Positions 4,083 to 53,382 of a stretch of DNA of 64,000 nucleotides are shown here, one piece after another. The notes under the pieces are model-generated. The model was not told the origin of the DNA. It ran no database searches and was given only the letters and a program-made list of their open reading frames with translations. This DNA is from Bolinopsis microptera (taxonomy: Eukaryota > Ctenophora > Tentaculata > Lobata > Bolinopsidae), in assembly GCF_026151205.1 (NCBI RefSeq), contig NC_087075.1, positions 9,904,303 through 9,968,302 on the forward strand. The letters run 5' to 3'. A program made the position numbers and the translations under genes. Numbering within the stretch: the first letter of the stretch is position 1; every line of letters starts with the position of its first letter.

Positions 4083-4200
4083 CTTGACGGATGTTACTAG
4101 TCTAAATTTCTTCGAAGTAGCGCGCGCCGCTTTCTTCTCGAAATGGCCCGATGGCACGAGCTACGAATGACGAAGTAGCGCGCGCCGGGCCAGATCATTA
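4083..4200. repeat. CpG-rich dispersed repeat, fourth copy
   Basis: It matches about 1683-1765. The AAGTAGCGCGCGCCG segment appears twice within this copy, a small internal duplication. Confidence 0.5.
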
Positions 4201-4550: not shown

Positions 4551-7500
4551 CTATTCTTTATCTATGGTGTCGTATACATTTTCACTGTCTGATGCTATGA
4601 ACTGTCTCTCCTCAGCTGAACAACTCACCCCAACTTCAGCCATGATAATTGGACTCTCACTTGGCAGCTCAACTAGTTCCATTTCTTCCTGGGCGCCTAT
4701 ATGTGCACTGGCCTGGGAGTTATAGACCACTCTTATAACTGGATCTATTTCCTCTAGCCTACCTTTTCTTTTCTCACAGTAAAGAAGTAGACTTAGTGTT
4801 AGGGACACCACTGCCAGGAGTCCCGATGTGCATGACACAATAATCAGAATATAAATTATTTTGTGAACACTCGTTTGAACTTTATCAGGCGACAGAGACT
4901 GACAGGATCCACTTCCATTCTTAGCACAGCAATGTTGAGAGCCTGCTTCTGAGGATGTTCCTGTAGGACACATGGAACATGAGGTCATGTCGGGGTTTTT
5001 GAAGGTACCAGGTATGCAGGAACAACTCTCAGATCCAACTGTTGAAGTTGAGAATGGCGAGCAAGGGGCACAAGCAGACATTTGGGAGTCTTTGTAGGTA
5101 TTCTGAGGGCATAAGACACAGGTTTCGCTAGTATTTTCAGTCCAACTCCAGTTAGTACCAATTGGGCAGTTGCAAGCTGTTCCGTTATATATGACCTTTG
5201 ATCCAGGCGGACAGCTTAGGCATTGTAAGGATTTGCTCCAATACCTATCCTCAATACAGGCACACCGGTCAGAACTGGCTGCTGACGAGGAGAAATCAGG
5301 GCAGAATGTACATGATGTCCTAGTCCCAGTTCCAGCTTCGTAAGTGTTAGCAGCAGGACAGGGTCTACAAGACCTAGAACTAGTGTATTGACCTGGAGGG
5401 CAGGTCACACTGATGCAACTGGAGGAACCAGTAGTGGAGGTAGATGTGGCTGAGCATGAAGTACACCATGTCCTAGAATTAGTTCCAGATTTGTAAGTGT
5501 TAGCAGCACAGGTTCTACAGTACCATCTATTATAATTATTATAACTATAAGCGTATTGACCTGGAGGGCAGGTCACTGGCAGGTCCCCTAGCTCATTCCA
5601 ATTCTCATCAACCAGCAGGAAGCTGCATTCTGAAAAAAGTGCAACTCATTCTCTTGTTGATCTACTTAATCGAACTATATTATAGCGACACTGCTATAAT
5701 ACGACGTGGTTCTCATATCTCTGTATACCTCTAAACATTAAACAGTGTATACGATATAGTGCACTAATTGAACTGTAATGACAGCACTTAACTTTATTGT
5801 GACATAAATAATTGCACTACTTATCAGTTTAGACTTTAGCACACTGCTAGTAGCACACTGCTAGTAACACACTGCTAGTAGCACACTGCTAGTAGCACAC
5901 TGCTAGTAGCACACTGCTAGTAGCACACTGCTAGTAGCACACTGCTAGTAGCACACTGCTAGTAGCACACTGCTAGTAGCACACTGCTAGTAGCACACTG
6001 CTAGTAACACACTGCTAGTAACACACTGCTAGTAACACACTGCTAGTAACACACTGCTAGTAGCACACTGCTAGTAGCACACTGCTAGTAACACACTGCT
6101 AGTAACACACTGCTAGTAACACACTGCTAGTAGCACACTGCTAGTAACACACTGCTAGTAGCACACTGCTAGTAACACACTGCTAGTAGCACACCGCTAG
6201 TAGCACACTGCTAGTAACACACTGCTAGTAACACACTGCTAGTAACACACTACTAGTAATACACTGCTAGTAACACACTGCTAGTAACACACTGCTAGTA
6301 ACACACTACTAGTAATACACTGCTAGTAACACACTGCTAGTAGCACACTGCTAGTAACACACTGCTAGTAGCACACCGCTAGTAGCACACTGCAGGTAGC
6401 ACACTGCTAGTGGCATACTGCTAGTAGCACACTGCTAGTAGCACACTGCTAGTAGCACACTGCTAGTAACACACTGCTAGTAACACACTGCTAGTAACAC
6501 ACTGCTAGTAGCACACCGCTAGTAGCACACTGCTAGTAGTACACTGCTAGTAGCACACTGCTAGTAGCACACTGCTAGTAGCACACCGCTAGTAGCACAC
6601 CGCTAGTAGCACACTGCAGGTAGCACACTGCTAGTAACACATTTCTAGTAAGTAGTAGCACACTGCTAGTAGCACACTGCTAGTAACACACTGCTAGTAA
6701 CACACTGCTAGTAACACACTACTAGTAATACACTGCTAGTAACACACTGCTAGTAGCACACTGCTAGTAACACACTGCTAGTAGCACACCGCTAGTAGCA
6801 CACTGCAGGTAGCACACTGCTAGTGGCATACTGCTAGTAGCACACTGCTAGTAGCACACTGCTAGTAGCACACTGCTAGTAACACACTGCTAGTAACACA
6901 CTGCTAGTAACACACTGCTAGTAGCACACTGCTAGTAGCACACTGCTAGTAGTACACTGCTAGTAGCACACTGCTAGTAGCACACTGCTAGTAGCACACC
7001 GCTAGTAGCACACCGCTAGTAGCACACTGCAGGTAGCACACTGCTAGTAACACACTGCTAGTAGCATACTGCTAGTAGCAACCTGCTAGTGTACACTGCT
7101 AGTAGTACATTGCTAGTAGCACACTGCTAGTAGCACACTGCTAGTTGCACACTGCTAGTAGCACACTACTAGTAACACACTGCTAGTAGCACACTGCTAG
7201 TAACACACTGCTAGTAACACACTGCTAGTAACACATTTCTAGTAAGTAGTAGCACACTGCTAGTAGCACACTGCTAGTAACACACTGCTAGTAACACATT
7301 GCTAGTAACACACTGCTAGTAACACACTGCTAGTAACACACTGCTAGTAACACACTGCTAGTAGCACACCGCTAGTAGCACACTGCAGGTAGCACACTGC
7401 TAGTGGCATACTGCTAGTAGCACATTGCTAGTAGCACACTGCTAGTAGCACACTGCTAGTAACACACTGCTAGTAACACACTGCTAGTAACACACTGCTA

Positions 7501-9470: not shown

Positions 9471-12361
9471 TTATTTTACTAGTTCTACTTCGACTAGTTT
9501 ACCATTAGGGTCAACATGCATTTCAACGTTATGTTCCAGCAGGTAGTTGACATGTTCAGCACAGAAATCCTCTCCTTTCATTCTGCTTTCACATTTCTGG
9601 AAAATTTTAAAAGTTTGGTCGACAATGCCAAACTATTTGTGTGTTAAATAAGACAAATTGTAAACTTGAGAAAGGTGGTCCTACAAAACTTTTCCATCTC
9701 AGATCTGAAAAATTGTAAACAAATTCTCAGAAAATCCGTGCACTAGCGAAGGATCAAATCGAACATAATATTAATATTATAGAATTATGAGGGGATCAGT
9801 TTCACAAACCGTATTGGCACAGACAACTTGACAGTTGAATCTTCCAGAACACATTCCGCAAATGTCAGGTTGACACCATAGATCACCCGGTACAAACTTT
9901 CGATTAAACCTGCAACAAACTTTCATTGTCGGCATGTGAAAAATAATTCGTAAGAAACTGTAACTGACATAATATTGGAATGCATTAAATGCAGGTTCAG
10001 TAGATTTGCTTGGAAAATTATGATTATTTTTTAGCTTTATGCAATTCATAGATCCAGAATAGGTTTTCATATAGTTTTAAGAGTTTTAATTATCTTTCCT
10101 TCCATATTATTTTAGCCTTTATTGAAGGTATATTGAGTAAATGTGCCGTCCAGGTGGTTGGTAAAGTGCCCCCGGGGAAGCCTCATCAGTACAGCGACGA
10201 TCCAACTGTCGTTAAACTTTCAGCAGAGAGAAAGTCCCTTCAGCAAGAATGTAGCCTCACAGGGATAAGTGACAGGAGTGGCCTCAGAAAAAGAATCAAC
10301 CATCTCAAACGTACCATCAAAAAGAGGTTGAAATCTATCAACGAGGCCACTGCTAACGCCCTAGTAGATGTCATCAACAACACCGACAGCTGCAGAAGCA
10401 TGTTTGAAGCGAATAGAACTTTGGCCCAGTGTAGGATGAAGAAAGATGGAGTGACTGTCCACGATGCAGACGGCAAAACCTTAGGTTCTGACTCATTAAA
10501 AGCAGAAGCTATTAAAGAATACTTTAATAATGAGTGCAATGAAAAAGATGAACCCCATCTCCCAGCATTCATAGACCCTCCTGGAAGCCTCCTCTGTCCC
10601 ATAACACCTGAAGAAGTTGGCCGTGCTGTTATGAAGCTGAAATCCGGTAGAGTGTGTGGCCCTGACGGTATACCTAATGAGCTAATGAAAGCTGCTGGAT
10701 ATCCCCTCCACTGTGAGTTGGCTAGGATCTACAATCTCTCCTTTGACGCCAACACATACATCCCAGCTATTGGAGAAGGTATCCTGACACCCCTTCAGCA
10801 GCCAGGAAAACCCCGAGGTCCGGTAAAGTCTATCCGGCCCCTCACATTGCTTAATGGAACTAGAAAAGTCCTATCCCTCGTAGCCTTGAACAGAATCAAT
10901 TACCACGTTGATATGTACACTGGACCTTGGCAGGCGGCATACAAGCAGGGTCGCAGTTGTGCTGACCTGGTTTGGTCTCAGAGAATGTTGACATCAGTGG
11001 TTACCAGGCGCGAGTTTGAGTATAGTAAAATCAACATTGACCGCTGCGTTTAATACCATCCGCAGACAGACCATCATCAACCTCCTCATTGATGCAGGAT
11101 GCTCTAGAGACGACATTCGCCTGGTTCAGTACCTCCTCTCAAATACAAAGCTCAAGGTGACGGTCAACAGAGCTGAGTCTGGTGAATTCGTGATTAATAT
11201 TGGAGCTTACCAGGGAGACAGTCTGGCAGGTAAAGTGTTTACATTGACCCTTGCCGGTGCCCTGAATCACATCAGAGCCGTGATCAGTGTCACAATCCCT
11301 AGACCGAACCCCCCAGTCTCTGATAGAAGCCTCCCGTTAGAGTCCGCCTATGCTGACGATGCTGAGCTTCTGAGTGAAGATGGTCAGAGTCTGGTGAAGA
11401 TACTAGAGATTGCCAGTGACATACTAAAGGACTGGAGTCTCTTTGTTAACGAATCAAAGACGGTGTTTACAAGAGTGTATTTGGCAGGAACAGATGCTTT
11501 AGATGCCCATGGCAATAAAATCAGAGGAAATGAAGAGTGGCGACAGTCAGTGCTATTAGGATCAAAGCTCTGTTCAGAAAGAGATATTGTCAACAGACGC
11601 AACAAAGCCAATGTTGCCTTCTACACCTACAAGAAAGTTGTACGAAGCTCTTGTCACTTCAGTGTTGTTGTATAACTGTAGCAGCTGGGCTGCTCCTGAA
11701 ACCGTAATGGCATCTGTCGACGTTCTTCAAAGGAAGCATCTGAGACAGATAATCAACACCTATTGGCCTACGGTTATCAGTAACGAGAACTTATATAAAA
11801 GATGTAATGTCAGTCCCCTTACTGAAACGATCAAGAAAGCACGATGGAAGATGCTTGGGCACGTTCTCAGAGGCGGTGATGACACTCCCGCTTTCTTATC
11901 TTTTAGATTTGCATGTTTAGGATGTCTTGACTACAAAGGAAGGAGGCGCAGACCTCGTTCAAATTTATTTGATTTATTATTAAGACATTATGACGAAGAA
12001 TATTATTATATATATATTGTGATTGTAATTTCAACGATTTAGTGTACAAAGCTCATGATAGACGTTTATGGAGAAGCTATGGGTGAGTCGAGACTACTCG
12101 GCCACTCGATTTTATGATTTATTTCCTATTATCTTGTGTTTGCTGTATATAGTTGATTAATAAATAAATAGGTAGTTCACTTTTAAAAACTTTACAATTT
12201 ACCAGATACCGTGCCTTTCGCCACTTAAACGAAATGAAATGAGGATCGCGAAGTGAAACAAAATCAAACCTTGAGAAGAAGCAAAGGTTGTGGTCAGCTG
12301 GGAAGGAGGTTGTCAGATGAAGTAAACTCAGGGTACCGATTAAGAAGAGTAGCTTCATCAT
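9471..12361 (-). CDS. Small secreted eight-cysteine protein, copy 1
   Basis: Three exons (12361-12270, 9909-9810, 9596-9471) give a 105-residue protein. Exon 1 encodes a signal peptide starting MMKLLFLIG and one Cys. Exon 2 begins with FNRKF.PGDLWC and exon 3 with KCESRMKGEDFC. From the tryptophan-linked Cys the spacing is C-x4-C-x2-C-x5-C-x3-C-x4-C-x9-C, identical in the paralogue at 17005-17913, and both copies share all intron positions and phases. This reciprocal conservation is the main evidence that the gene is real. The tail is acidic and Val/Glu-rich, containing MHVDP. I recognise no named family; it could be a short VWC-like or other disulphide-rich extracellular domain. Intron 1 carries a LINE insertion. 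Confidence 0.78.
10133..12170 (+). mobile_element. RTE-like LINE reverse transcriptase, frameshifted
   Basis: Three overlapping frames (10133-11053, 11016-11675, 11587-12042) read as one RT broken by two frameshifts. Frame 1 has the fingers (GPDGIPNEL, then PLTLLNGTRK). The first shift falls at about 11038 within motif A, next to AAFNTI. Frame 2 has a motif B-like GAYQGDSL and the motif C YADD. The second break, near 11640, also removes sequence. Frame 3 carries the C-terminal RKHLRQI...NLYKRC...GHVLRG region; a further shifted segment ends at 12086. No endonuclease domain precedes it, so it is 5'-truncated and inactive. It lies in intron 1 of the minus-strand eight-cysteine gene, in opposite orientation. 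Confidence 0.85.
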
Positions 12362-23620: not shown

Positions 23621-26600
23621 CTAATTTGAACACGTTTGGATACGTTATCCATAAGAGTCTCAATATAAGCATTTCGTCTTTCATCCAATCGCTCGGGATC
23701 TGTTCGAAGATATTTGCAGTTGCAAAGTGATGCAAACGACCGTAGGATTTTCAACTGAAAAAGAGTTGGAATTATGTCTTTCAGTTGTGGTAATATTTTC
23801 GTTTTCTGTTTATATACGAATTTTAGATATGATCACATGCAAGACCTGGCAGCCGTCCAACTCCAATAAAACTGAAGACCTGGCAGCCGTCCAACTCCAA
23901 TTAAACTGAAGACCTGCTAGCCGTCCAACTTCAATAAAACTGAAGACCTGGCAGCCGTCCAACTCCAATAAAACTGTATTCTATGGACTGTTGCTATTCG
24001 TAGCAGCGATATTTGTAATCTTGATTAAAATTGAGCAGTCAGCATCTTATCGTTATTATAAATATCTTTAATATAAGTATCATGTGCGAATCAATGTATC
24101 ACTCATCATGGTGAAAAGTAACACCTGTTTGTTAAATTGTAGGCGTGGCTCTGTTATAAATCTACCGCTGGCCGCAGAAAAAGCGGAAATCATGGACACT
24201 GTCCATGATTGCCACTGTAAATTTTACAACTCGTATTAAATTTAATATCAGGAACATTATAATACTCAGTCCTACAAACAAAGACATAATGAATAATTAT
24301 GTAAATATTTTTATAAGAAATGTGTTACCTCTTCAATAAACCTAGTACCCTCGCCACTTTGATGGATTATCTGAGCTATGTTCTTAGCTCCTTGATCCTT
24401 AGCTTTCTTAGTTGGTCTTATCGTCTCTGCTCTCACCTTAGAAACCTTGTCAGCAATGTGCTTCGTCTTCGAGTTCAGCTGCATCTCTGAAATAATTAAG
24501 TAGTGTAATATTATTATAGATTTCTGTATAAACATTAAACATGTGCTACCAATCAAACTTGTATATTCTTGGTAGTTCTTTGTACCAGTAGTGTGACTAT
24601 TATACTGGAAATTGCCTTCTACGTATACCATTAAAAGATTAAGCAAGAAAAACGAATATGAAACAAAACTCTACCGATATGAATTAAATTGTAAAAGCAA
24701 AAGCTTACCGATAATTGATTCAGTTCCAGTGTAAGCGACCTGCTTGTTCTGTTTAGAAGGCATCTTGGTCATAGCCTGACTGAACTCCATATCTCCTGCA
24801 CTGCTGGCAAGCCCCTGTTGGAACCTGGGAGGGTATCACGTTACAACGTTACCACAAAAAATGAAGTCAGTATTGTAAGTCAAAGATAGGGGTGACTCTA
24901 GCAAGCTAGTGGACAAGGGGCCCCTCTCTATTCTTTCGTGGTACGGCTAGAGCCCTTTCGGTACAGACATCACTGAATCACCGTCGGGACGCAACGCCAG
25001 GCATATGCACTCGTGTTATTTTCGCAGCTCTAATGAGAGATACTATCATTCACAGGTAAGTGACGGCTGCCCTTCAGCTTTGAGATCTTAGGCCCGTCCG
25101 GAACTCAAAATCGCTAGAAAAAGTTATTATAACCAACTGCACCCAACTGCACCACTGACTCACTGAGCTACAATAAAATGACAGTTTGCAATACACTATT
25201 ATTTCTTTTTAAATCCCCATAATCATATCTTACTTTTTAGGGTTGATCTTCTTCCTGTAGTTAGCAGTGAGTTCGTCCTCGTCCATGATGAAGTCAGGAC
25301 TAAAGAGACCACTCTGTATGGGTGAGAGAGCTACAGGGGAGTAAAGGGAGTCACCCCTCTTCTCACGTTCTCTCCAGTTCGTATGGTAAGGCGGCTGTAA
25401 TAGTGGCAAATAAAAGTAAAATTTTTGAATTTCATGAAAACAGAGTTTTGGAATTTTTGATTTTATATATTTTGTGATATTTTGAATTTTTTTGATTTTT
25501 TGACGTTTTTTACATTTGTTTGTCATTCTCGCTGCAGGAGAAAGTATGAATTTGCCTTACCTTGGGTCTAATAGACTCCTCCATGAACGATTCAGCTCTG
25601 CTGTCAATTTGTTCCACAGTGTTGTCTCTAGTACTGAGTTCCACATCACTGTAGAGTGTTGGCATACTGTAACAGTGCAGGGTTAGTAACAGTTGCATGC
25701 TATCATTTACTGCATAGAAACAGTGTGGTGTCAGCTGCATGTTATTGCAATTTACTTGTGCATGTTCAAATTTATATCGGTGCCTTGCAAGTGCAAGATT
25801 TCATTAGTACCTGAGAGCAGACGTTGAATGGATGATTTATGTCAGGTCTGGATAGTGGATATGTTGAGATTGAAAGATTAGATATTATACTCCGATTACA
25901 AAACTATAGCATTGTATTCCGAATGTGGTGATCATTTGCAAAAATCTGCCTTTTAAGTTCATCAAATTGGTTGAGAAAATCCCGTTTGGCCGGAAAAATT
26001 CGTGTGCTCTGCAGTATTATAAAGGTCGTAAAGGCAAGCTGTGTTTATGATTACTATCAACCAATCAAATGATTGATAATTTACTTATAATACCTATTAA
26101 TGCTTTTCATGCAAACAAGTTAAAACGAATCTTTTATGTCATGCATCCTGGGTTTGGACAGGATATGCCCGCTTAAAATACTTCCATATTATGTATTATC
26201 GATGTTGTATAAATACAAATAAAAGCATGATATTTATGTCCGATAAGGTTAAATGGTGTGTAAATGAATATGAAACTACTTTCAACACTACTGTATATAA
26301 CAAATAATTTAAAAAAGCGATGAAACAGAGCCAATAAATCAAATGTTGCCATGCCGACCTGGCAAGTCCCTATTCATTAATTCATTGTAGCCCGCTAGTT
26401 ACACAGCCTCTCAATATGAGTATATTCGAGTACTATTCAAATCATATTATGTAATTGAATAATTTTAGTGATTTAATACGTACAACGGAATTTTCTCGTC
26501 TTTCATTTTAGTATGAGGCAATGATGATTGATGATTGATGAATAAATAAAATAGTTTTGTTGTAGACCCTGGTCATTAGAAACACCCCTAAAGGTTCTTG

Positions 26601-29600
26601 CTGTGACAATCTTCTAAAGTTAAATTGGGAAAACGTGGTCCATCTCGTGCGAACTTTCCTAATGAAATAATGACCAGGGTCTGTAATAGTATACCATTTA
26701 ATTCAACATCGTGGAGGGGCGGCAATATGCGTGTAATGTATATATAAATTATATATCATGAAATCCTGATTTATCATGATAATTTTATAGGTTTGTTGTA
26801 TGAGCTGATACGTTTGTTTTCCTTATCGTTTTAATTTGAATAATCTGTTGCAGTAATACTGTAAAGTAATTCTTCAGACACTCAAAAACTACTTTAAACT
26901 TATTTTTGCATATCCTTGATGCTTCATAGTGAACAGTTTCCCCATGACGACGGAATAAGATTAAGTCGGTTTAAGTTTAGATATATAGTTTCAAAACAAT
27001 CGAATTATTCAATCGATAAAGTCAGCGTCCAGTGGGTATTTATTTAACGCAGAAATATAGCCAGCAGGTATATTTGTCTATTTGTATCAATCCCGGCTTT
27101 TCCCGGCTATTGTCACTCAAATACCGGACGAATCCATATTATATATCGCAGCCCGCTATTTAAATTTTAAACTGCCTCTCAGTATGAGTATATTCAAGAA
27201 CTTTTCAAACCATCAGGTCATTCAATAATTTTAGTGACTTAATGTGTTGAAAAGAATATTCCCGCCAAATCGTTGTTTGAATGGGGGGAAATTTTGAAAA
27301 CTAGCAAAATTGCGCGTTCTGCTCGTGAAACTCACCTTTTTTAAACATGCAACGTTACACCAGTCTCCACTGGTATGTGCTGTGTGTATATTATGAAATC
27401 CTTATTTACCATAATAATTTTATAGGTTTGCTGTCTAAACTGGTAAATTTGGTGTCCTTAGGCTTATCGTTTTTCTGTGCCCTAACTTGTTAATTTGTTT
27501 AAGTAATACTGTATAATAGCATTTCTTCAGACACTCAAAAACTATTTTAAACTGCCGTTTTTTGCATAGCGAAGAAATTTAACCTGACTTTCTTATCGCC
27601 TAGAAACTTGTTTTAATGTTTCAATGCATATCCTTAAAGCTTCGTAGCGTTTATATATTAGTCAAGTATTAGTAGTCGAAATTTAATTCCAATATTTCTT
27701 AATTACTAATTTTCGTTAAGTACTTCATTAGAAATATGTACCTTCAGTACTCAGTAGAGCTATAATTCAGCTAAATTTATACATTCTGGGTAAAAATTAT
27801 CTTTATCCCGGTTGTTGCGACAAGTAAAAATGCGCGTATTAGGGAAAGGAGATTACTCGACGTTTCAATGTAACTACATCGTATTCATGATCTCAAATTA
27901 TTTGTTATATAGTAGTGTGTAGTTTTGTTACGCGTTGATTATTGAGCTCTCTTATCTCATCTCTTATCGCTACAATTTAACGACGACTTAGCTGCTAGTT
28001 TGTGTCTGGTGCTATACAATTCTGAGTACATTATGGGAAATGTGGACTTTCACTCTACAATGTGGTCATGTAAATATATGGACATGTTTGCTGATTCTGC
28101 TAATGATCTTGGTTGTTGGGCAGAGGAAGTGATGAAGACAATAAACTGTGATGAAGATAGTCATATTACATTAGACAAGTTCAAGAAACCAAACAAGGAC
28201 GTTGTGGTAAAGCACCTTTTTGATGCCTTTAAGGGAATTGTTGGATATAAGGAATGCTTTCGAAAAGCGACAATAAGACTGGAGGAAATGAGAAGCGACA
28301 TGATTAATACTCAGAAATCAGTTATTCAGTTGCAAGGGGAACTCTTGGACATAAAGACTAAAGAGCTAGATTCAGTCCAGAGAACTGTTAAAACCGCTGT
28401 AGAAAATACTGTTCAAGCTGAGATTAAGTCTTACAGTGCTGCTGTGTCAAAACATTCCCACAGCTCTGCCTCCACTTTCACGGCAGAGAACTTTAAGAAA
28501 GTAGTTCAGAATGTGGTAGCTGAAGAGGATCGCAGCAGAAATGTGTTGATTTTTGGTCTCAAGGAGGATGCAGGTGAGAAACTTGCTGATAAAATTTGCG
28601 ACGTGTTTGAACAAATGGCAGAGAAGCCACGTTTTGAAGCTGCTCGAATTGGGAATAAAGCTGGTGACAAACATAGAGCTGTTAAAGTATCATTTGGAAG
28701 TTCCAGCACCGTTCATCAGATACTGATCAAAGCTAAAGAACTTAGACTGTCTCAGTGTTTCAAAACTGTCTTTATTTCACCGGATCGGTCGCCGGAGGAG
28801 CGTGCAGTACATAAACAGCTGGTTCTAGATTTGAAGAAGAAGGTCACGGAAAATCCTAATAAACGTTATTTTATCAGGACTGGTAAAATTTGTGAGATAG
28901 ATGAGTGAGATATAATAGTTTATTTCTTATTCAATAATATAGATATTACATATTTCTTAAGCCATTTTACACTTTACATTTAATGGGAATATACATGCAT
29001 TCTGGAGTTTAAATTATTACTTTTGTCACCACGCCAGCCGCTTTGAAGTCGGCAATTTTTTATTTTAATAATATTGGTTGTTGATATAAGCGGGATATAA
29101 ATGCTTTATTTCATTTCATTTCATTTCATTTCATTTCATTTCATTTCATTTCATTTCATTTCATTTCATTTCATTTCATTTCATTTCATTTCATTTCATT
29201 TCATTTCATTTCATTTCATTTCATTTCATTTCATTTCATTTCATTTCATTTCATTTCATTTCATTTCATTTCATTTCATTTCATTTCATTTCATTTCATT
29301 TCATTTCATTTCATTTCATTTCATTTCATTTCATTTCATTTCATTTCATTTCATTTCATTTCATTTCATTTCATTTCATTTCATTTCATTTCATTTCATT
29401 TCATTTCATTTCATTTCATTTCATTTCATTTCATTTCATTTCATTTCATTTCATTTCATTTCATTTCATTTCATTTCATTTCATTTCATTTCATTTCATT
29501 TCATTTCATTTCATTTCATTTCATTTCATTTCATTTCATTTCATTTCATTTCATTTCATTTCATTTCATTTCATTTCATTTCATTTCATTTCATTTCATT

Positions 29601-32600
29601 TCATTTCATTTCATTTCATTTCATTTCATTTCATTTCATTTCATTTCATTTCATTTCATTTCATTTCATTTCATTTCATTTCATTTCATTTCATTTCATT
29701 TCATTTCATTTCATGTCATTTCATGTCATGTCATTTCATTTCATTTCATTTCATTTCATTTCATTTCATTTCATTTCATTTCATTTCATTTCATTTCATT
29801 TCATTTCATTTCATTTCATTTCATTTCATTTCATTTCATTTCATTTCATTTCATTTCATTTCATTTCTCAGTTATTTAGAATATATATTCGCATTTATCC
29901 ACACTATATTTACATTACACGTACAACGCGATATCGTTATCAGTGCAGTGTGTACAACACCAACTACACCGATTAATTGCCAATATGCGAAACATTTAAT
30001 TATTATTATCACTTCACTGGCCATCATTTCATTTCATTTCATTTCATTTCATTTCATTTCATAGTGTTGAAAGTATTATTTTAATACTTTCAACACTACT
30101 ATATAACAAATAATTCATGAATACGATGTAGTTACATTGAAACGTCGAGTAATCTCCTTTCCCTAATAAGAGCATTTTTACTTGTCGCAACAACCGGGAT
30201 AAAGATAATTTTTACCCAGAATACATTACAACAATGCGACTCATAAATAATACTCCAATCCGGATTTTACATAAATTTATACAATCCTTATTAGATGATA
30301 AGACGGCAAACTAATCAATTGTTGAGCTAAATCGGATGGGATCTGTCTATCTCGGGGCCCTTCCCGGCTATTGTCACTTAAACACCTTGTCATTAAAGCT
30401 GAATTTATACTATTCCTAGATGATAAATGACTGTAGAGCTCATTCATATGGGTGCTCTGAAAACCACTCCAGACATTTTTGTCGACTGTGTGATGTGAAT
30501 GACTCGGATCATCTCTCCAGAAACTGTCCTCAAGCAAGTACGCTATATCATGGAACTACAGCTGATGCAGCGATAAATATTACAGAGGAGGGACTGAAGT
30601 GTAGTCCAAATGGCAGGTTAGGTCGAGGGATATACTTTGTTGAAAATCGTGATGATGCTCTAAAAATAGCTCGCAGCAGAAATCCCAACAATTGGGCTGT
30701 GTTACAGTGTAGAGTTAATCTAGGGCCTCCCATAGCGGGAAATCAATCTCCTGATACAATTAAAAGGTTACATGGAACAGTTGGTGTTCATCCTCCATGG
30801 GCAGGCATTACAGCCGACTTTATGGAATACTGCTTAACAAACGAAAAAAAGTGCAATGTGGTTGAAAAAATCTCTGAAGGCGGAGAATTCATCATCAGGA
30901 ACAAAGTAGCTATTCCCAAAGAAACTGATCAAATGTTACAAGCCAGAGATTTTCCAGCAAGACAACCTGCAGCAGCACCACAGCAAGTGAGGCAACCCAC
31001 ATTTGTAGCGGCAAGACAGCCTGCAGCTGTGCAATGGCAAATGAGGCAACCCCCAGCGCCATGGCAAATCCAAGCAGCTCCAAGACGACCTTTTAGTGAT
31101 ATTTGCACCCATATACAGCACTGCTTAACAAACTTTATTGTAAACTGTAGGAAAGCTGTGACTGGAATCTGCCTACAGATACTAATCTGTTTAGAGTGTT
31201 TGGCTGTGAACTGTGGAAAATGTCTCGTATGCTTATGCAAATGGAAAACTTTAAAACATTTTCCCAGTATTTTAATCTTGCTCAGCTTCCTCCCGAATCT
31301 CGCGAATGCGATTTACTGCATCGTTTTGCATGAGCCTGGTAAGCTTAAAAATGAAACGCTTAAAAATGAAACGCTTAAAAATGAAACGGTCGAGACTGTT
31401 CTTAGAAATATCCAGAACAGCTTTATTTCATTCTCTGTGTTATTTGTTTTACACTCTATAGGCAACATCCTACTTCTAGGCACGTGTTTGTTTACAGACA
31501 AGTGGAAGGTTATGAAAACTTGCAGCGTGATATCCTTAAAACTCGGAAAATATTTTCTGCTGGATATGCCGATGTACGTGTTACATGTATGTTTGATAAA
31601 ATCAGAGATGAAGTTCATAGGAAATGAGGATTGGGATCCATACTTCTGGGATCTACTACTGCAGCTGGGATTCTTCATAGAAACGATTATAATAATTGTG
31701 ATCCTGATCACGACCCAAGCAACTCGTAGATACAAAATGATTGCTTTTATGATAATGTTTTTGTTGTCATTTTACGCTCCCATGTGGCTGGCAATGAGTA
31801 AACCTTTCAGTAAAGAACTTTTCTCTACTGATCCTTCTGATTTAGGACAAAACAAAACAGGAAAATTCACCGAGGGAGGACGTTCTCATAAAATACTGAT
31901 ATTTTTATGTTTTACAGGGGTTGCGAACTTGTATGGTTTTATAACAGTTAGTGTCCTTATAGGATTCGGTATTGTTCTATGCATATTGGGTTGTTACTGT
32001 AACTGCGGAGATGGATAAGATAACTATAAAGATCTTATCAACACATAAGACCGGTTCCGAACCCGCATCGACCGTTTGTTTTTGTAAAGCTCTTAAAATG
32101 TCTTTCTTTACAATTACAATAAACGACGTAGTTATTAACTTTTAGCAATTAGCATACTTATAGTTTCATCTCAAGAGATGTATTTTGATAAAGTTTATCT
32201 TTCTAAAAGCGTCTAATTGATATTTAATTTGCAACTCGACTAATGCGGGTAATGCCAAAAAAATATGATGAGGTATGGAAATATTATATGGCATGATATG
32301 GCATGTGCAATAAATTCATAAAGTTTCATCATAATAAATTCAACATTTGGGCTAAATTTGGAGTAAATATTTACTTAGATTTCATTAAAGTTAAACTGTT
32401 TGATCGATCTCACTTACTCACATTCTTTTATTTTTCATGTTAATGAGGTGGTATGATTCACTTTCTTTTGTAATTCCTATTTCTTCTTCCGTGTTTACAC
32501 GTTATCACTGGTTGTTTATTTATAATTTACGTGTTTATTCATGTCGATTGTTTACTTTACTGTAGTAGTATATCATTGTTATCTGAAAGCAGACACTAAA

Positions 32601-35600
32601 TGAATGATGTCAGGTATGCATATGTGTTCACATTAAAACATGGCAAACATTTTAATATGACTTAATAAATGAGATTAGTTGTTTGTATGGCATAAATCTA
32701 TATTCCAATTGACATTTGTTATCTATTTCATTGAGGTGGTATGCATGTACAGTAAAACCCTGATTTACCACGCCCTGATTTACCGCGGGTAATTGAAATT
32801 CCGTTTCCCCCAAATTTTCCTTTAAAACGTTACCATTATCTTGAATTACGAAATTTGATACAAGCTGGGTAAGTAAAGATGTTACATTTCACTTTTCCTT
32901 ACTGTATTATGCAATCCTGAATATATCATAATTACTTTGTCTGGACTGGTACAACGTTCGTTTGTCCTTACCCTATTTCTGTGCAGTGGAATTTTTTATT
33001 TTACTAATACGTAATAAGTTTTACTCCCCTCTCCGAATAATATAAATTGTTTTTTAGCCTGCGAAAAAAAATAACTTACTTAACCAAGAACAAACGGTTT
33101 TTGTCGTTTGATGTTTTTTCGTTTTGATGTTTCATAACTTTAAAAATATTTCAAGTCGAATAATTAATTCCTTTGTTACCTTAAGGCTTAAGTAACGAAG
33201 TTATTTGGGAGGTCGTCATGCTTATAACCATGGTCTTGCTAGTTTTATGATAACTTGGCTGAATGTCCCAAGATGATTACAGATCACAGAGTCTTCCAAT
33301 GCAAAGCTAAGTCGGATGGCTGCATAGAAAATCACCGTAAACATTTCTGTCGACTGTGTGATGAGGATAATTCAGATCATCTTTCCAGAAACTGTCCTCA
33401 AGCAAGCACACTGTTTCATGGAACTACAGCGGATGCAGTGAAAAATATCACAGAGGAGGGACTGAAGTGTAGTCCACAAGGTTGTTTAGGTCGAGGAATA
33501 TACTTCGTTGATAATCGTGAATATGCTCTAACAATAGCTCGTGGCAGAAACCCCAACAATTGGGCTGTGTTGCAGTGTAAAGTTAATCTAGGGCCTCCCA
33601 TAGCGGGAAATAAATCTCCTGATACAATTAAAAGGTTACATGGAACAGTTGGTGTTCATCCTCCATGGGCAGGCATTACAACCGACTTTATGGAATACTG
33701 CTTAAAAAATGAAAATAGGTGCAATGTGGTTGCAGAAATTTCTAGAAACGGAAAATTTATCATTCCAATACAACCTACAGCAGTGGCAAAACAACCCACA
33801 GTGGTGCCAAAACAACTCGCGGTAGTGCCAAAACAACCTGCATTTGTGCCAAAACAACCCGCATTTTTGCCAAAAAAACCTGCAGTAATGCCCAAACAAC
33901 CCGCAGGACAACTCGCAGCAGTTCTAAAGCAACTTGCAGTAGTTCAAGGACAACCTGCAGCAGTCCCAAAACAACCCACAGTATTTACAGGACAACCCGC
34001 ATCGACCCACAAAGCCTCTGTAAGTGTAAAAGAGCGAATTGCCATATTGAACAAGACAGCTGATGGTAACAACTAACAATGCAAAAATGAAATAGACCAG
34101 TCTTCTTAGATGAATTTTAAAATAACCTCAAAGATCTCACAGTGAAACCTAAATTTCCTATCATTGCGGGAGATTTCAACTCAAAAAAAAAGGACAGTAT
34201 TAAAAAATTGTGTTTTCTTATAGAGAATGAAGGAAAAGATACCCCTGTATGTACTTTTGATCAAATCAGAGATGATTTTCTTGAGAACCAAGAATTGGGA
34301 TACGTCCTTTTTGGAATTATTACTGCAGCTGGGATTCATCATCGAAACAATAATTTTCATTCTGATCACGACCCAAGCAACTCGTAGACACAGGATCAGT
34401 GGCGTAACGAAAGGCCCTGCTGACCCCGCTGTGCAGGGGGGCGCCGTCTTAGGGGGGCGCCAAATCGTCGTTTGAATGTGGGACAATTTCGAAAACTTAA
34501 CTAAAGTACTAGCAAAACTGCGCGTTTTGCTCTAGATACACACTTTTTTAGAGATTTTACCGGCGTATTCTTTAAAATCACCTAATTTGTTCAATTTTAG
34601 GGAGGGGCACCAAAAGGGGAGGGGGCGCCAACAGGGGGGCGCATTTTTCGCCAACAGGCAACGTTACGCCACTGCACAGGATTATTCCATTTATGATTAT
34701 TTTGTTACTTATTGTTGTTATTTTACGCTTCTATGTGGATGTCAATGAGTAAACTTGTCAGTATCTGTCCATTTTTCTGATTTAGGAACATTCAGGGAGG
34801 ATGTTCTCATAACATTTTGATATTTCTATGTTTTATAGGGACTGTGCACTAATTGTTTGTAATTATAACTTGTTTGTAATTATTACTTGTTTGCTATTGC
34901 AGAAGTTAATTACCCTTATTATACACATACTGTTTAGTTTCATTTCACATGAGATGTATTTTTCCCCTACTCTTGCCGAAGGCAAAAATATCGTAGGGAA
35001 TAAGTAATCGGGTTTGGATATATGAGGTGGCCCGACGGTCCTACGATGTCGACAAAAGTCTGCTCCTTCGCAATATAGACCACTCCCCTATATTCTATAA
35101 TTAAGTGTATAGGAAGCGTATGTTATGCTGCGCGCGACGCTAGCCATGTGTTAATTAATTACGGTGAAATTCCTCCTTCGCAAAGTTATTTTCCGCAATT
35201 TTCTGCATTTATTAAATGTTGATGCGCGGCGCTGCATTGGTGAAATAAATCGTCAATTTTTACCATGCACAAATCCTACTCATTTATAAAAAACCATTGC
35301 ATAGTATGTAAATATGTTGCACTTTTTTCCAGTCACACTTTTCACTCAAAAGAATTGATGGTACAAGTACATCGTAGGGAAAATTGATCGTGCGTGGTTT
35401 AACCGCGGCGAAATTCTTGTTAATGTCAATTTGCAACTTGAAATATGATGAGGTTCAACAAGAAACATGATGATGCTTTAAAAGTAAATACGTGACACGG
35501 CATACGATATGCTGGGAAATTTACTGTAGGAACTAATATACAGCACCTGGGAGCACGTTTCTGAGCTTGGCACAGAATAGAGTTCAGTCACAGTACCCAA

Positions 35601-40130: not shown

Positions 40131-40261
40131 TATATAGCGTACCCTGAGGCAACAATGTACTCAAGTACATATTATCTCAGTTTTGCTTGAGTGGTTTCCG
40201 CATATTCCACGAAAATCATCCCGATTTGCTTGTGTGATCTCTGCTGATTTCTTACCAAAAC

Positions 40262-41588
40262 ATGATATACAACTACTCTAACCAGACGCTGTTTGGCATA
40301 AAAAGCAGCCCCGAAAGATACACTTTTGTAACCTGGGTAGTATTCGTAGTGCTCTGCTCGTTTATCGGGGACACCAGTATACTCATCGCCTCCCTCAAGT
40401 ACAAGGCCCTGAAACTCCACAGTGTCATGATAACGTTCATCCAGCACCTAGCTGTATGTGACCTCCTCAACTCCCTGGGTAACTTCCTACCTTCCGTTAT
40501 CTCCGCCTTTGCTAACTGTGAGTACTTTGGGGAGGAAGTGAGGTACCTCAGGTTCTGGATAACCTACTACAACAACACTGTTAGTATAGGACTGATCTGC
40601 GCTATGACACTCACCAAGTTACTCCTAATAAAGTACCCGCTACGAACAGCTGCCTGGCACTCTGAACAAGCTAACAAGGTGAATATCATTCAAGTTTTTT
40701 TATTGAATTGATGTATAGCCAAGACGAGTCCGTTATAGTGTTTTTCTTGGTAATCTCATGTTTAATTCTTGTTTAATTCCAAGGTGTGTGGAGGAATCTG
40801 GTTGCTGTCCGTCTGTGTGCCTTCTCTTCACATCCTGGTTGATAAACACGATGTTATCTTCGATTACCGAGTTTACAGCTGCATGTACGCGTACTCGTCA
40901 GATGTTTGGAAGGTTTTGTTGCCATTAACGGCAGTTCTGATTGTGTATATCCCGACTATCACCATCATAGTTGCAACAGCGATGCTACTGAGAGAGGCAG
41001 TGAGAGTAGCTAGATCTCAGCTCCGTTGGCAGGGTATTATAACTGTGGTTCTTACTGCGGCAGTTTACACTCTCTCTTTCTTGCCATATGGGATATACTG
41101 CATTGCAGAGCCGCTAGTGGTGAAGGATCCCTTAACTCCGGGATATTTCTACACTTATTACTACAGGTATTCTTTAAGTTTACTGAATATTACAGAATGA
41201 GCGGATATTTCCTAGTACAATAAATGTTAGGACCATTTATATTGGCATAAGTTACCGAATTAAAGTATTATTTTCTAATAATTTTGCATGTTGCATGCAC
41301 GATCCAGTTTAATATTGTTTTGTTTTATTTGATAATGTACTTATTTAATAATAATAATATCCTTGCAGGATGACGTGGGTGTTTGTGAGTTTCAATGTTC
41401 TCGCCAACTTCTTCATATACAGTTTGACTGTTACTAGTTTCAGAGCATTTCTGAAGACAAAGATGGGGAATGTCATGTCGAGTGTGTATCGTTCATCTTC
41501 TAATTCAGGTGAATTGTTAAATTTTGAAAACCCAATCCGTTCTGCTCATATTGAGAATATGATATTCTCATATTTTTTAAATAACTAG
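40262..41588 (+). CDS. Class A-like G-protein-coupled receptor
   Basis: Three exons (40262-40678, 40784-41166, 41369-41588) join in phase to give 339 residues with seven hydrophobic segments. The N-terminus has two N-glycosylation sequons (N4, N7). TM1 has FIGDTSI where GN is usual; TM2 has the class A LAVCD with D67. C86 before TM3 and C172 in the second loop can form the conserved disulphide. The end of TM3 reads TKLLLIKYP instead of DRY, TM6 has SFLPYGIYC without the CWxP tryptophan, and TM7 has LANFFIY instead of NPxxY. It is probably a lineage-specific receptor; the ligand is unknown. Introns are 105 and 202 bp. An AATAAA lies about 530 bp past the stop. Confidence 0.88.
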
Positions 41589-42714: not shown

Positions 42715-42817
42715 CTGCAATTTTTGATAATTAATTATTAGTTACTACAGTTGAATAATAATTAATAAGTATGACTGAGTACAGTTGTAAGTAATTTATA
42801 GATAATGAATTTGTTAT

Positions 42818-44063
42818 CCTGACCCTGACCCTGACCCTGACCCTGACCCTGACCCTGACCCTGACCCTGACCCTGACCCTGACCCTGACCCTGACCCTGA
42901 CCCTGACCCTGACCCTGACCCTGACCCTGACCCTGACCCTGACCCTGACCCTGACCCTGACCCTGACCCTGACCCTGACCCTGACCCTGACCCTGACCCT
43001 GACCCTGACCCTGACCCTGACCCTGACCCTGACCCTGACCCTGACCCTGACCCTGACCCTGACCCTGACCCTGACCCTGACCCTGACCCTGACCCTGACC
43101 CTGACCCTGACCCTGACCCTGACCCTGACCCTGACCCTGACCCTGACCCTGACCCTGACCCTGACCCTGACCCTGACCCTGACCCTGACCCTGACCCTGA
43201 CCCTGACCCTGACCCTGACCCTGACCCTGACCCTGACCCTGACCCTGACCCTGACCCTGACCCTGACCCTGACCCTGACCCTGACCCTGACCCTGACCCT
43301 GACCCTGACCCTGACCCTGACCCTGACCCTGACCCTGACCCTGACCCTGACCCTGACCCTGACCCTGACCCTGACCCTGACCCTGACCCTGACCCTGACC
43401 CTGACCCTGACCCTGACCCTGACCCTGACCCTGACCCTGACCCTGACCCTGACCCTGACCCTGACCCTGACCCTGACCCTGACCCTGACCCTGACCCTGA
43501 CCCTGACCCTGACCCTGACCCTGACCCTGACCCTGACCCTGACCCTGACCCTGACCCTGACCCTGACCCTGACCCTGACCCTGACCCTGACCCTGACCCT
43601 GACCCTGACCCTGACCCTGACCCTGACCCTGACCCTGACCCTGACCCTGACCCTGACCCTGACCCTGACCCTGACCCTGACCCTGACCCTGACCCTGACC
43701 CTGACCCTGACCCTGACCCTGACCCTGACCCTGACCCTGACCCTGACCCTGACCCTGACCCTGACCCTGACCCTGACCCTGACCCTGACCCTGACCCTGA
43801 CCCTGACCCTGACCCTGACCCTGACCCTGACCCTGACCCTGACCCTGACCCTGACCCTGACCCTGACCCTGACCCTGACCCTGACCCTGACCCTGACCCT
43901 GACCCTGACCCTGACCCTGACCCTGACCCTGACCCTGACCCTGACCCTGACCCTGACCCTGACCCTGACCCTGACCCTGACCCTGACCCTGACCCTGACC
44001 CTGACCCTGACCCTGACCCTGACCCTGACCCTGACCCTGACCCTGACCCTGACCTGACCCTGA
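42818..44063. repeat. (CCCTGA)n hexanucleotide array, ~207 copies
   Basis: Essentially perfect over 1.24 kb, ending in a few decayed units and TGACCTGACC words up to 44115. It differs by one base from the CCCTAA telomere unit. Long frames through it (VRVR or GQGQ) are repeat artefacts. Confidence 0.98.
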
Positions 44064-44129
44064 TCTAGACACATTGCTCTGGGCACGATGTCTTGCCTGA
44101 CATGACCTGACCTGACTATCCTAATCATG

Positions 44130-50150: not shown

Positions 50151-51717
50151 AACCAATTGTAAACAGGAGAAAAATTAGATAAGACTTTTAATCTTATCTA
50201 AAGACTATAATAAAAACTAGAAATTTCGTTTGAAGACAAATTAACGAAATTTGGAATGAATTATAAATGAGACTGGTCAATAATTGTATATTTAACATTT
50301 AAACTCCTGGAAAATTCGAACAATTGATCAATCCGATCATGAAAAAGAATTGCGGTTACACATTCACGATCATGAATAGGATATGCGGTAACAATCCCAT
50401 CACGAAAAGGAATCCGTGGTTAAATGAACGTAAATCTGAGCATGATCATTCACAGCTTAGTGAATGCTAAAGTTAGCGTACACTTGCTGTTAACAAGTGA
50501 TGCAATTTTTAAAGTAACCAAAAACAAGTAGAACGTGGAGTTTTATATACCATGCTTGGTATATCGATAACAAGTAAAACTTTACAGAAATATAATATAA
50601 TATATATCTACAAGACATAACCTCGAGGACAACGGTTAACATTAAAAACTTTGTAAAAAAGCAACCCTCAAGTGCACAAGAAAGAGTAAAATCAGCTGAG
50701 ATCTTATCAAGTAATACTAAATGTAATGAAGAGATAACCTCAGCACTACATAGCGTTTATAACAGTCACACACACTGCGGATTGTCAGACAATGACAAGT
50801 AGGGTTTAATACAAAGTAAAAGACGATATCGTCAAACGTTTTATATGCAGCAAGTAACATACATTCAATTTTAAATTAATGTTACATAATTATAGTTAAA
50901 TAAAAGTTAACACACATGGTGATATAATCAGCTCTTAACATTTATTTATAGCCATGAAGTTATCCGCCTATCCGGATCATGAAAACAACGACCTACCTAT
51001 TGTTGAGTTTACTGTAAAGTCGTACTAGATGAGTAGACACCGTTCTGTGTACCCTTTTAACCACTGTTAACCGTTTTAACCGTTAACCGTTTTAACCACC
51101 CGAACTACCTGCTGTGTAAATAACGTCAGTCACAGTGCTGGTAAGCGCGACCGTCAGTTTGATCATAGCATTATTTGGCTTATTAAAAATCATTAAAAAT
51201 ATAATAGGAGTCAATATTATTGGTTCGTGTTCAATCTTTAACTATTTTTCTACTCAACGATATCAGTTCATAAGGTTTAAATTAAGTCTGGAAACTCTTG
51301 TTCGACGTTTTAAATCGATCAACGACACTGATGGCACCGGAAGTTTAGATCGAGCGAAAATGAAAATGTGAATACGGAAATGTAATCATTCAGCGATTGG
51401 TGGTGTAATGTTACGAGGTTACAGGTTCGAGCTCCACGATGTTCTGATGTAGCATCATGTCAACCACTGGGCTAAGGACTCCATCGGATCTAAACAGCCC
51501 CCAGGCCTCACAGTGAACTTCCTGCTCCACAAACAAGTCGCTTAGTATTTGATCACACAGAAATTGATTTCCCCGAAATTTTCTGGACCGATTTTTCACA
51601 AATCAGAATTTCATAGACCTTATCAAACATGCTTGGGCCCTAGCTTGATCGTAAGGTCCATGAAACCTTTATACGATAAGATTACAAGTCTCCCATGAAC
51701 ACCCCGCTGTCACAGCA

Positions 51718-53382
51718 GTGACACAACTGGAATTCTCTATCAGTGATGTTATCGAGGCTATTGATGATATTAAGCCAAATGCTTCATCTGGTCCTGATGA
51801 GATCCCAGTTGCTCTACTTAAGAATTGCAAAGATGCTATGGCGATTCCTATCCATCTGATCTGGTCAAAATCCCTTGCATCTGGAGAAGTACCTTCATTT
51901 TATAAGTACTCCCACGTTTCTCCGCTCCACAAGAAAGATAGCAAGGCGTTTCCTTCCAACTACAGGCCCATTTCACTCACCTCCCATATAATCAAGGTGT
52001 TTGAGAGAATCATAAGGAAAAAGCTAGTCTTACATCTAGAAATGAACAACTTGCTCTGTAGCAAACAGCATGGCTTTAGATCAGGCCGCAGCTGCCTTAC
52101 ACAGCTTCTCCACCATTTCGACGACGTTTTTGAGTCATTAACCAACAAAGCTGACTTTGATTCTATATATCTTGATTACGCTAAGGCGTTCGATAAAGTT
52201 GATCACAAATTGTTGATCAGGAAACTTCACCTCTATGGCTTAAATCCAAAAATCATCAAATGGATTGAATCTTTTCTGTCAGACCGGAAGCAAGCTGTAG
52301 TGGTCGACGGCCACTTGTCATTTCTCGCTCTGATCATCAGTGGTGTCCCCCAGGGAACAGTCCTCGGGCCGATCTTGTTCCTTATTTTCATCAATGATAT
52401 TGAGCATTGCATAACTGAATCCATCATCAGATGCTTTGCAGACGACACTCGTGTTTCAATATCGGTAACCTGTGAACAAGACGTATCTGTGTTACAAAAC
52501 GACTTGAACAGTGTCATAAAATGGTCTGAACGAAACAATATGGCACTACATAAAGACAAGTTTGAGTACATGTGTCACAGACACAATCGACGTAGTGCTC
52601 TCGTCGAACTTCCTTTTGTTAGTGAACTATACCAGTACTCAGTATCCAAAGACAAGTCACTCGCACCTGTAGGTCAACTAAGAGACCTCGGGGTTCTCGT
52701 CTCCAACGATCTATCTTGGCAACCCCACATCAAGACCGCAGCAAACAAGGCTCGACAAAAAGCTGCCTGGGTTTTCAGTGTCTTTCAGACAAGATCTCCA
52801 GTCATAATGCTTACGCTTTACAAGTCGATGGTTCGTAGTTTACTGGAATACTGTTGCCCGCTATGGCACCCCTCCAAGATATGTGACATCCAGGAGCTTG
52901 AAAGCGTACAGAAAGCTTTCACCGCAAGGATTACTGGAATGCGTGATCTCCATTATTGGGACCGTCTTCAACGGCTATCTCTGATGTCTCTACAGCGTCG
53001 CAGGGAGCGGTTCATTTTACTTCATATGTGGAAGATTTTCCATCACCATACCAGCAACGACATTAACGTGCAGTTTGTCTCCAGGCCACGTTTTGGAAAC
53101 CTTGCAGTCATTCCATCTGCATGCAGACACAGCTCAGCTGCAAATCAGTCACTGTATGATAATTCATTTGCAGTCATAGGCCCAAAATTGTGGAATGCAA
53201 TGCCTTACCATTTGAATTCCATCGGCGACCGAGAGCATTTCAAATCGCAGCTCACCCAGTTCATGCTATCTCTTCCGGATACACCGCCCATCAGGGGCTA
53301 CACTCCTCAGAACTCAAACTCGCTGCTTTGCTGGAGGAATGACAGAGAGATCTCCTCTCTGTGGGGTGGTCACACAATGTGA
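51718..53382 (+). mobile_element. Open 554-codon LINE reverse transcriptase, 5'-truncated
   Basis: An uninterrupted frame covers the whole RT: SGPDEIPVALLK, NYRPISLTSHIIKVFERII, HGFRSGRSC, motif A LDYAKAFDKVDH, motif B SGVPQGTVLGPILFLIFIND, motif C FADDTRV and a LGVLVSNDLSW segment, then the C-terminal LLEYCCPLWHPS and WNAMPYHL. All catalytic aspartates are present. This is the jockey/CR1 type of ORF2. The apurinic endonuclease domain is missing, so the copy is 5'-truncated and cannot move alone. The intact reading frame implies a recent insertion. It is not closely similar to the CR1/L2 fragment at 14937. Confidence 0.92.

Follow-up and report, generated by a model that had tools for sequence, protein, structure and literature searches.

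A candidate membrane-tethered PARP-type ADP-ribosyltransferase and its gene family in the ctenophore Bolinopsis microptera

The open frame and its parts

The window analyzed here is a stretch of 64,000 nucleotides of the Bolinopsis microptera genome. Its open reading frames include, on the forward strand, a single-exon frame of 532 codons (532 aa), hereafter copy 1, which runs without internal stops from the ATG at 30420 to a stop codon ending at 32018 (30420..32018) and is conserved in a second intact copy, L014. The sequence-only reading of this DNA had described a Cys/His cluster, an ADP-ribosyltransferase (ART) core, a Pro/Gln linker, a Cys-rich belt and membrane helices, in this order, and all of them are seen in the one frame. 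Residues 5-36 (30432..30527) comprise a putative double zinc site, CX6CX3HX2H followed by CX2CX6HX4C. The candidate PARP-type ART core, residues 38-165 (30531..30914), contains H44 (30549-30551), Y72 (30633-30635) and E136 (30825-30827). It is followed by a linker rich in Pro, Gln and Ala (residues 166-227, 30915..31100), where L014 has an in-frame gap of 138 nt, by a Cys-rich belt (residues 229-274, 31104..31241), and by a membrane half with about six hydrophobic segments (residues 284-525, 31269..31994).

In the Cys/His cluster, C5, C12, H16, H19, C21, H31 and C36 are identical in all six copies found in the same genome, and C24 in five of the six; the cluster may bind zinc. A search of PDB sequences yielded no clear relative of the cluster (best E 0.12), and in the own genome it was located, up to an E of 10, solely in the six places of the ART copies (six candidates scored).

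Five or six membrane helices had been proposed for the C-terminal half. This agrees with a hydropathy scan, in which both intact copies show five strong hydrophobic segments and one or two weaker ones. The scan is crude, as each copy also has a single false peak within its ART core. The membrane half has no Pfam match and no match among PDB sequences. A transmembrane segment in the Cys belt was considered and rejected, since the belt is hydrophobic and scored as transmembrane in copy 1 only, while in L014 it carries charged residues and is not scored. For the same reason the belt is not counted as a helix; it more likely lies at the membrane surface than spans the membrane, and is possibly S-acylated.

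With helix ends set by hand, the net charges of loops 0, 2, and 4 in copy 1 are +3, +3, and +3, and those of loops 1, 3, and 5 are 0, -4, and +1, a pattern consistent with an N-terminus in the cytosol. In L014 the respective values are +7, 0, +2 and +1, -3, +2, and the predicted orientation is less clear. In the membrane half of copy 1, the four NxS/T sequons fall within loops 1 and 5; of those of L014, two lie in the Cys belt and one in loop 1. The N-terminal part, read as cytosolic, also contains four sequons in each intact copy, so sequons do not decide the topology.

The window contains several other features. Two forward-strand frames resemble retroelement reverse transcriptases, one at 51664-53382 (PF00078, E 1.6e-32) and one at 10052-11675 (PF00078, E 0.0075 for 10052-11050, below the cut-off). 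Pieces similar to rhodopsin-type GPCRs are located at 40238-41200 (+); the piece at 40238-40708 matches PF00001 with E 3.3e-7, and the second has no PF00001 match. On the reverse strand, a 364-codon frame (4551-5645) carries Cys-rich repeats and matches Ephrin_rec_like (PF07699) with E 0.0069, below the cut-off of this model; inspection by eye shows a hydrophobic stretch close to its C-terminal end. A 1.26 kb hexamer satellite (42809-44068) is open in several frames on both strands. Genome-wide, we found 18 matches to innexins; as sponges are not known to have these proteins, a sponge as host was rejected. Mitochondrial COX1, tried as a host marker, gave no match.

Six related loci and the fate of the membrane half

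When the genome (264,652,675 bases in 232 contigs) was searched with the ART part of copy 2, a tandem neighbor of copy 1, at least six places were recovered: copy 1, copy 2, L014, L015, L016, and L017. Copy 2 (33273..34076, forward strand) consists of the Cys/His cluster, the ART core and Pro/Gln repeats, and meets a stop before the membrane half. L014 (contig C3, 1.70 Mb; 465 aa) is intact and has all parts. L015 (C13, L015:4823-6220) is a frame of 465 codons without stops, with long Pro/Gln tandem repeats after the ART core, and L016 (C4, 12.35 Mb, L016:4769-7618) has 949 codons without stops, with Pro/Gln and WDVEDD repeats; both end near the counterpart of the start of the Cys belt. In L017 (C3, 10.2 Mb; 216 aa), judged by eye, the ART core runs in one frame into a stretch resembling the Cys belt and first helix, and then reaches a stop. 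Hence four of the six copies, namely copy 2, L015, L016, and L017, carry no intact membrane half in their frame.

Still, in all four the ART frame is followed, in the same orientation, by DNA that can be aligned to the membrane half. Compared with 60 shuffles each, the alignments to L014 had z-scores of 52.6 for copy 2, 17.9 for L015, 15.2 for L016, and 23.9 for L017, and those to copy 1 had z-scores of 43.7, 5.3, 14.3, and 31.0, respectively. In a control with 400 unrelated 1-kb stretches taken from this genome, every stretch scored below all eight values, and reverse strands stayed at background. Downstream of copy 2, one decayed segment (34239..34397, +) lies outside the ART frame and corresponds to residues 383-440 of copy 1, and another (34697..34900, +) contains stops; they are separated by 299 nt unalignable to copy 1. 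The relics of L015 and L016 are marginal at the protein level (tblastn E 0.018 and 0.28) and, visible by DNA alignment, are absent from the genome-wide protein searches. Beyond the intact copies, these searches with the membrane half listed nothing but decayed remnants close to copy 2 and to L017 and, behind L014, a duplicated 3' end. Decayed membrane-half pieces occur on C3 in a tandemly duplicated block (L018, 3924-5293 and 8033-9900), where the ART search of the genome listed no ART copy.

Since the four anchor-less copies still have membrane-half DNA downstream, the collinear arrangement of ART core and membrane half probably predates all six copies, and at most four events probably removed or truncated the anchor in the four copies that lack it. 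In an unrooted tree of the ART parts, copy 1 and L014 split from the rest (support 95) and L015 groups with L016 (100); the placement of copy 2 and L017 has a support of 45. Alignments of the Pro/Gln tails with the membrane half are meaningless and were left out of use. We also considered whether the copies are haplotype duplicates of one locus, and rejected this because the intact copies are ∼12% divergent and each is located on a large contig of its own.

The fusion in one frame, as claimed from copy 1 alone, recurs in L014, which has the full set of parts in identical order at 80% identity to copy 1. All 13 internal indels between the two coding regions are multiples of three, compared with three of 20 in the flanks (1/9 and 2/11). 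Nei-Gojobori estimates for this pair (own script, bootstrap intervals) gave dN/dS of 0.56 (0.39-0.75) for the whole frame, 0.37 (0.15-0.85) for the ART core, and 0.58 (0.39-0.87), only moderately below 1, for the Cys belt with the membrane half. For the Cys/His part alone the value is 0.59 with a wide interval of 0.18-2.45, and for the linker, with 11 codons only, 1.15 (0.25-5.82). In a neutral simulation starting from copy 1 (0.10 changes per site and lineage, 2000 runs), both lineages kept the whole frame free of stops in no run, the membrane half in three, and the ART part in 72. The same order of parts in L014, the in-frame indels and the dN/dS below 1 argue that the fusion is not a chance read-through.

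These data bear directly on the alternative that the active unit is the Cys/His-ART part, mostly with a Pro/Gln tail, and that the membrane half is a fading appendage, drifting in two copies. In its favor are the relics downstream of the four copies that do not read through the membrane half, which is therefore dispensable in them. Also in its favor, dN/dS of the N-terminal and ART parts between copy 1 and those four copies is 0.24-0.42, lower than the 0.58 of the membrane half between the two intact copies. Against it, the interval of the latter excludes 1, the internal indels are exclusively in frame, and stop-free membrane halves are rare in the neutral runs. We regard this alternative as possible, if unlikely.

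The ART core and its relatives

A PARP-type ART core had been proposed from motifs, and the searches bear this out: the Pfam PARP model (PF00644) matches all six copies, and PARPs are the top matches among PDB sequences. The model matches the whole of copy 1 with E=1.1e-4 and 22.2 bits, below the curated cut-off of 26.7 bits, and copy 2 with E=3.4e-6 and 27.2 bits, above it. Against the excised cores, it matches six of six at E<=1 (best 2.8e-7), and in the genome scan the cut-off is reached by four of the six copies; copy 1, at 22.2 to 24.2 bits over the different searches, stays below it. A six-row profile of the ART cores placed PARP10 (E 0.0026) and PARP3 (0.0033) first among PDB sequences; these values are modest. 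The HGT and GxGIYF motifs are common to the ART core and its best relatives in the PDB. Compared by hhalign, the six cores align with 96% probability to three canonical PARPs of the same genome and, equally, to its ten PARP-like sequences taken as one set; the probability falls to 72% for a PARP16-like frame and to 7.4% for a group of five NFX1-type sequences. None of these alignments extends as far as E136. Taken together, the sequence matches indicate that the ART core of copy 1 is homologous to PARPs.

H44, Y72, and E136 are identical in all six copies, including the most diverged one. The first two had been put forward as catalytic motifs, and the H and Y indeed align to those of PARP10 and PARP3. 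E136, suggested as the third residue of the triad, is a plausible candidate: in an hmmsearch alignment to PARP4 (E=0.02) it coincides with the glutamate of an EFVVY strand. As it is aligned only in this match, E136 is the least certain of the H-Y-E set, and its spacing from Y72 is presumably shorter than in canonical PARPs. Copy 1 has both marks of a PARP-type H-Y-E ART, the match to the PARP model and H, Y, and E at the respective positions.

The modest scores leave some room for a membrane protein with an ART-like fold that lacks catalytic activity or is no PARP, such as a binding-only ART or an enzyme resembling RNA 2'-phosphotransferases. The matches to PARP models are weak, and there are faint matches to RNA 2'-phosphotransferases around the HGT motif in copy 1 (E 0.12) and copy 2 (0.16 and 0.033), with none in L014, and to ART-PolyVal in five of the six cores (best 0.018). 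On the other hand, PARP ranks first among the Pfam matches of the first core and no other family is matched by all six, PARPs make up 57 of the best 60 of 81 matches to PDB sequences at E<=10, and the H-Y-E set is kept in all six copies. A dead or non-PARP core therefore seems quite improbable to us.

The Pfam PARP scan of the genome gave 21 matches, comprising the six members of this family, five close together on contig C12 that look like exons of one gene, and ten translated frames. By eye, neither the Cys/His cluster nor the membrane half is present in any of the latter ten, five of which are 5'-incomplete (L030, L031, L033, L037, and L041). One of the ten, the PARP16-like frame L038, has a hydrophobic helix at its end, also judged by eye. 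We further considered a viral or prokaryote origin of the gene and rejected it: pattern scans, two over viral contigs and a third over prokaryote genomes, gave no relative at tblastn E<=1e-3. PADLOC gave no match, and PHROGs one weak match to a family of unknown function (best E 0.0015).

By analogy, the nearest working counterpart of copy 1 would be PARP16 (ARTD15), a tail-anchored mono-ART of the endoplasmic reticulum. As in copy 1, a PARP-type ART core is followed in it by a membrane anchor at the C-terminal end, and it is described as a helical extension, an ART domain and one transmembrane helix (PMC10450202; the anchor also in PMC7695420 and PMC10389827). Unlike PARP16, copy 1 has the Cys/His cluster, the Pro/Gln linker, the Cys belt and a candidate third-triad E; instead of a single C-terminal helix after a helical extension and ART, it has ∼240 residues with about six hydrophobic segments. 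To our knowledge, PARP16 has no E at the third position of the triad.

The catalytic domains of PARP10, PARP3, PARP14/15, and PARP4 are the best relatives among PDB sequences and have the HGT and GxGIYF motifs in common with copy 1. The accessory parts of these proteins are macro, WWE, RRM, and vault-binding domains, none of which has a Pfam match in copy 1. The Gig2 genes of fish and amphibians, to which the ART core had been likened, were first found as interferon-stimulated genes and are reported from non-amniote vertebrates only (PMC3617106). By description only, Gig2 is similar to copy 1 in having a weak match to the PARP signature in its N-terminal part and a family-specific C-terminal domain of its own, and differs from it in that the description mentions no membrane or Cys/His part (PMC3617106).

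The fusion of cluster, ART core, and membrane half was found in none of Pfam, NCBIfam, PHROGs, PADLOC, the PDB sequences and the viral and prokaryote contigs. The earlier statement that no standard PARP or ART family has such an order of parts is consistent with these sequence libraries. None of the literature matches listed deals with a PARP that crosses the membrane several times or with a comparable PARP from a ctenophore; one paper on tankyrases names ctenophores (PMC9688111).

A probable membrane-tethered enzyme and its 5' flank

Two diverged copies, copy 1 and L014, keep the cluster, the H-Y-E ART core, the linker, and a hydrophobic half of several segments in one frame. On balance, we think it probable that copy 1 encodes a PARP-type ADP-ribosyltransferase of a ctenophore that is tethered to a membrane and is functional, or was so until recently. 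In such an enzyme, the N-terminus would face the cytosol, where NAD+ is located, and the multi-pass half would fix the protein to an internal membrane or the plasma membrane. The zinc-type cluster would bind a partner or nucleic acid and may choose the target, the flexible Pro/Gln linker would give the ART core reach, and the core would mono- (perhaps poly-) ADP-ribosylate nearby proteins, much as the tail-anchored PARP16 does, from a larger anchor. The four sister copies with a broken or cut-off anchor, three of which have a Pro/Gln-repeat tail, would, if expressed, be soluble forms acting away from the membrane. An immune role of copy 1 is only a guess by analogy.

The protein might also be a polytopic membrane sensor, whose half of six or seven helices would sense a ligand, a lipid or membrane damage, with the cytosolic zinc-ART half ADP-ribosylating proteins there and the family also making soluble forms. 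We know of no example of a receptor-like PARP and hold this to be very unlikely.

The ATG of copy 1 is directly preceded by a stretch ending in TATTCCTAG (30406..30419, +; alignment read by eye). A similar TATCCT[TC]AG stands before the homologous codon in L014, L015, and L016, and not in copy 2 or L017. It is a possible 3' splice site or spliced-leader acceptor; the AG before the ATG may thus accept trans- or cis-splicing, and an upstream exon is therefore possible. The start of homology between several copies at such an AG|ATG would also suit two separate genes or exons that share a frame by chance, their halves coming from different mRNAs; yet two loci keep one frame across a linker differing by 138 nt, no GT-AG pair bounding this gap is seen by eye, and L017 too joins the ART core in one frame to what by eye resembles the Cys belt and first helix, which makes this the least credible of the alternatives.

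Copy 1 and L014 have about 770 nt of upstream flank in common, from which the start of copy 1 is separated by about 2.6 kb that could disturb its expression. An inverted repeat pair (27783-27918 and 30093-30222, 94%) encloses about 2.4 kb, with a 302-aa frame (28000-28908) and a TTCAT satellite inside. The homologous flanks of L014 (ending at 4181 and resuming at 4185) lack this interval, which suggests an insertion a short distance 5' of copy 1.

Two forward-strand stretches of the window, at 26283 and 30091, resemble the spliced leader of Hormiphora, another ctenophore, which served as a query (PMC8527503). For the 29-letter form at 30091, the genome has 1,209 exact occurrences, 564 on the forward and 645 on the reverse strand, and none was found in the reversed control. 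Some of the listed places form close inverted pairs, so the motif may belong to mobile inverted repeats rather than leader genes. In the window and 17 further loci, leader-like motifs were found at 26283 and 30091 only, neither of them immediately 5' of a copy of the gene. As the source of the family, retroposed mRNA copies bearing a spliced leader were rejected; DNA-level duplication fits better, given the position of these motifs and the shared flank of ∼770 nt.

If copy 1 is a membrane-tethered PARP-type enzyme, it would go beyond what the cited sources describe: their membrane-anchored PARP is PARP16, with its single helix, and a multi-pass PARP-type enzyme in a ctenophore would broaden current knowledge of ADP-ribosylation at membranes. 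The presence of intact and anchor-less sister copies in one genome makes the role of the anchor directly comparable. Should copy 1 be induced by infection, it would bear on the age of PARP-based defence in animals.
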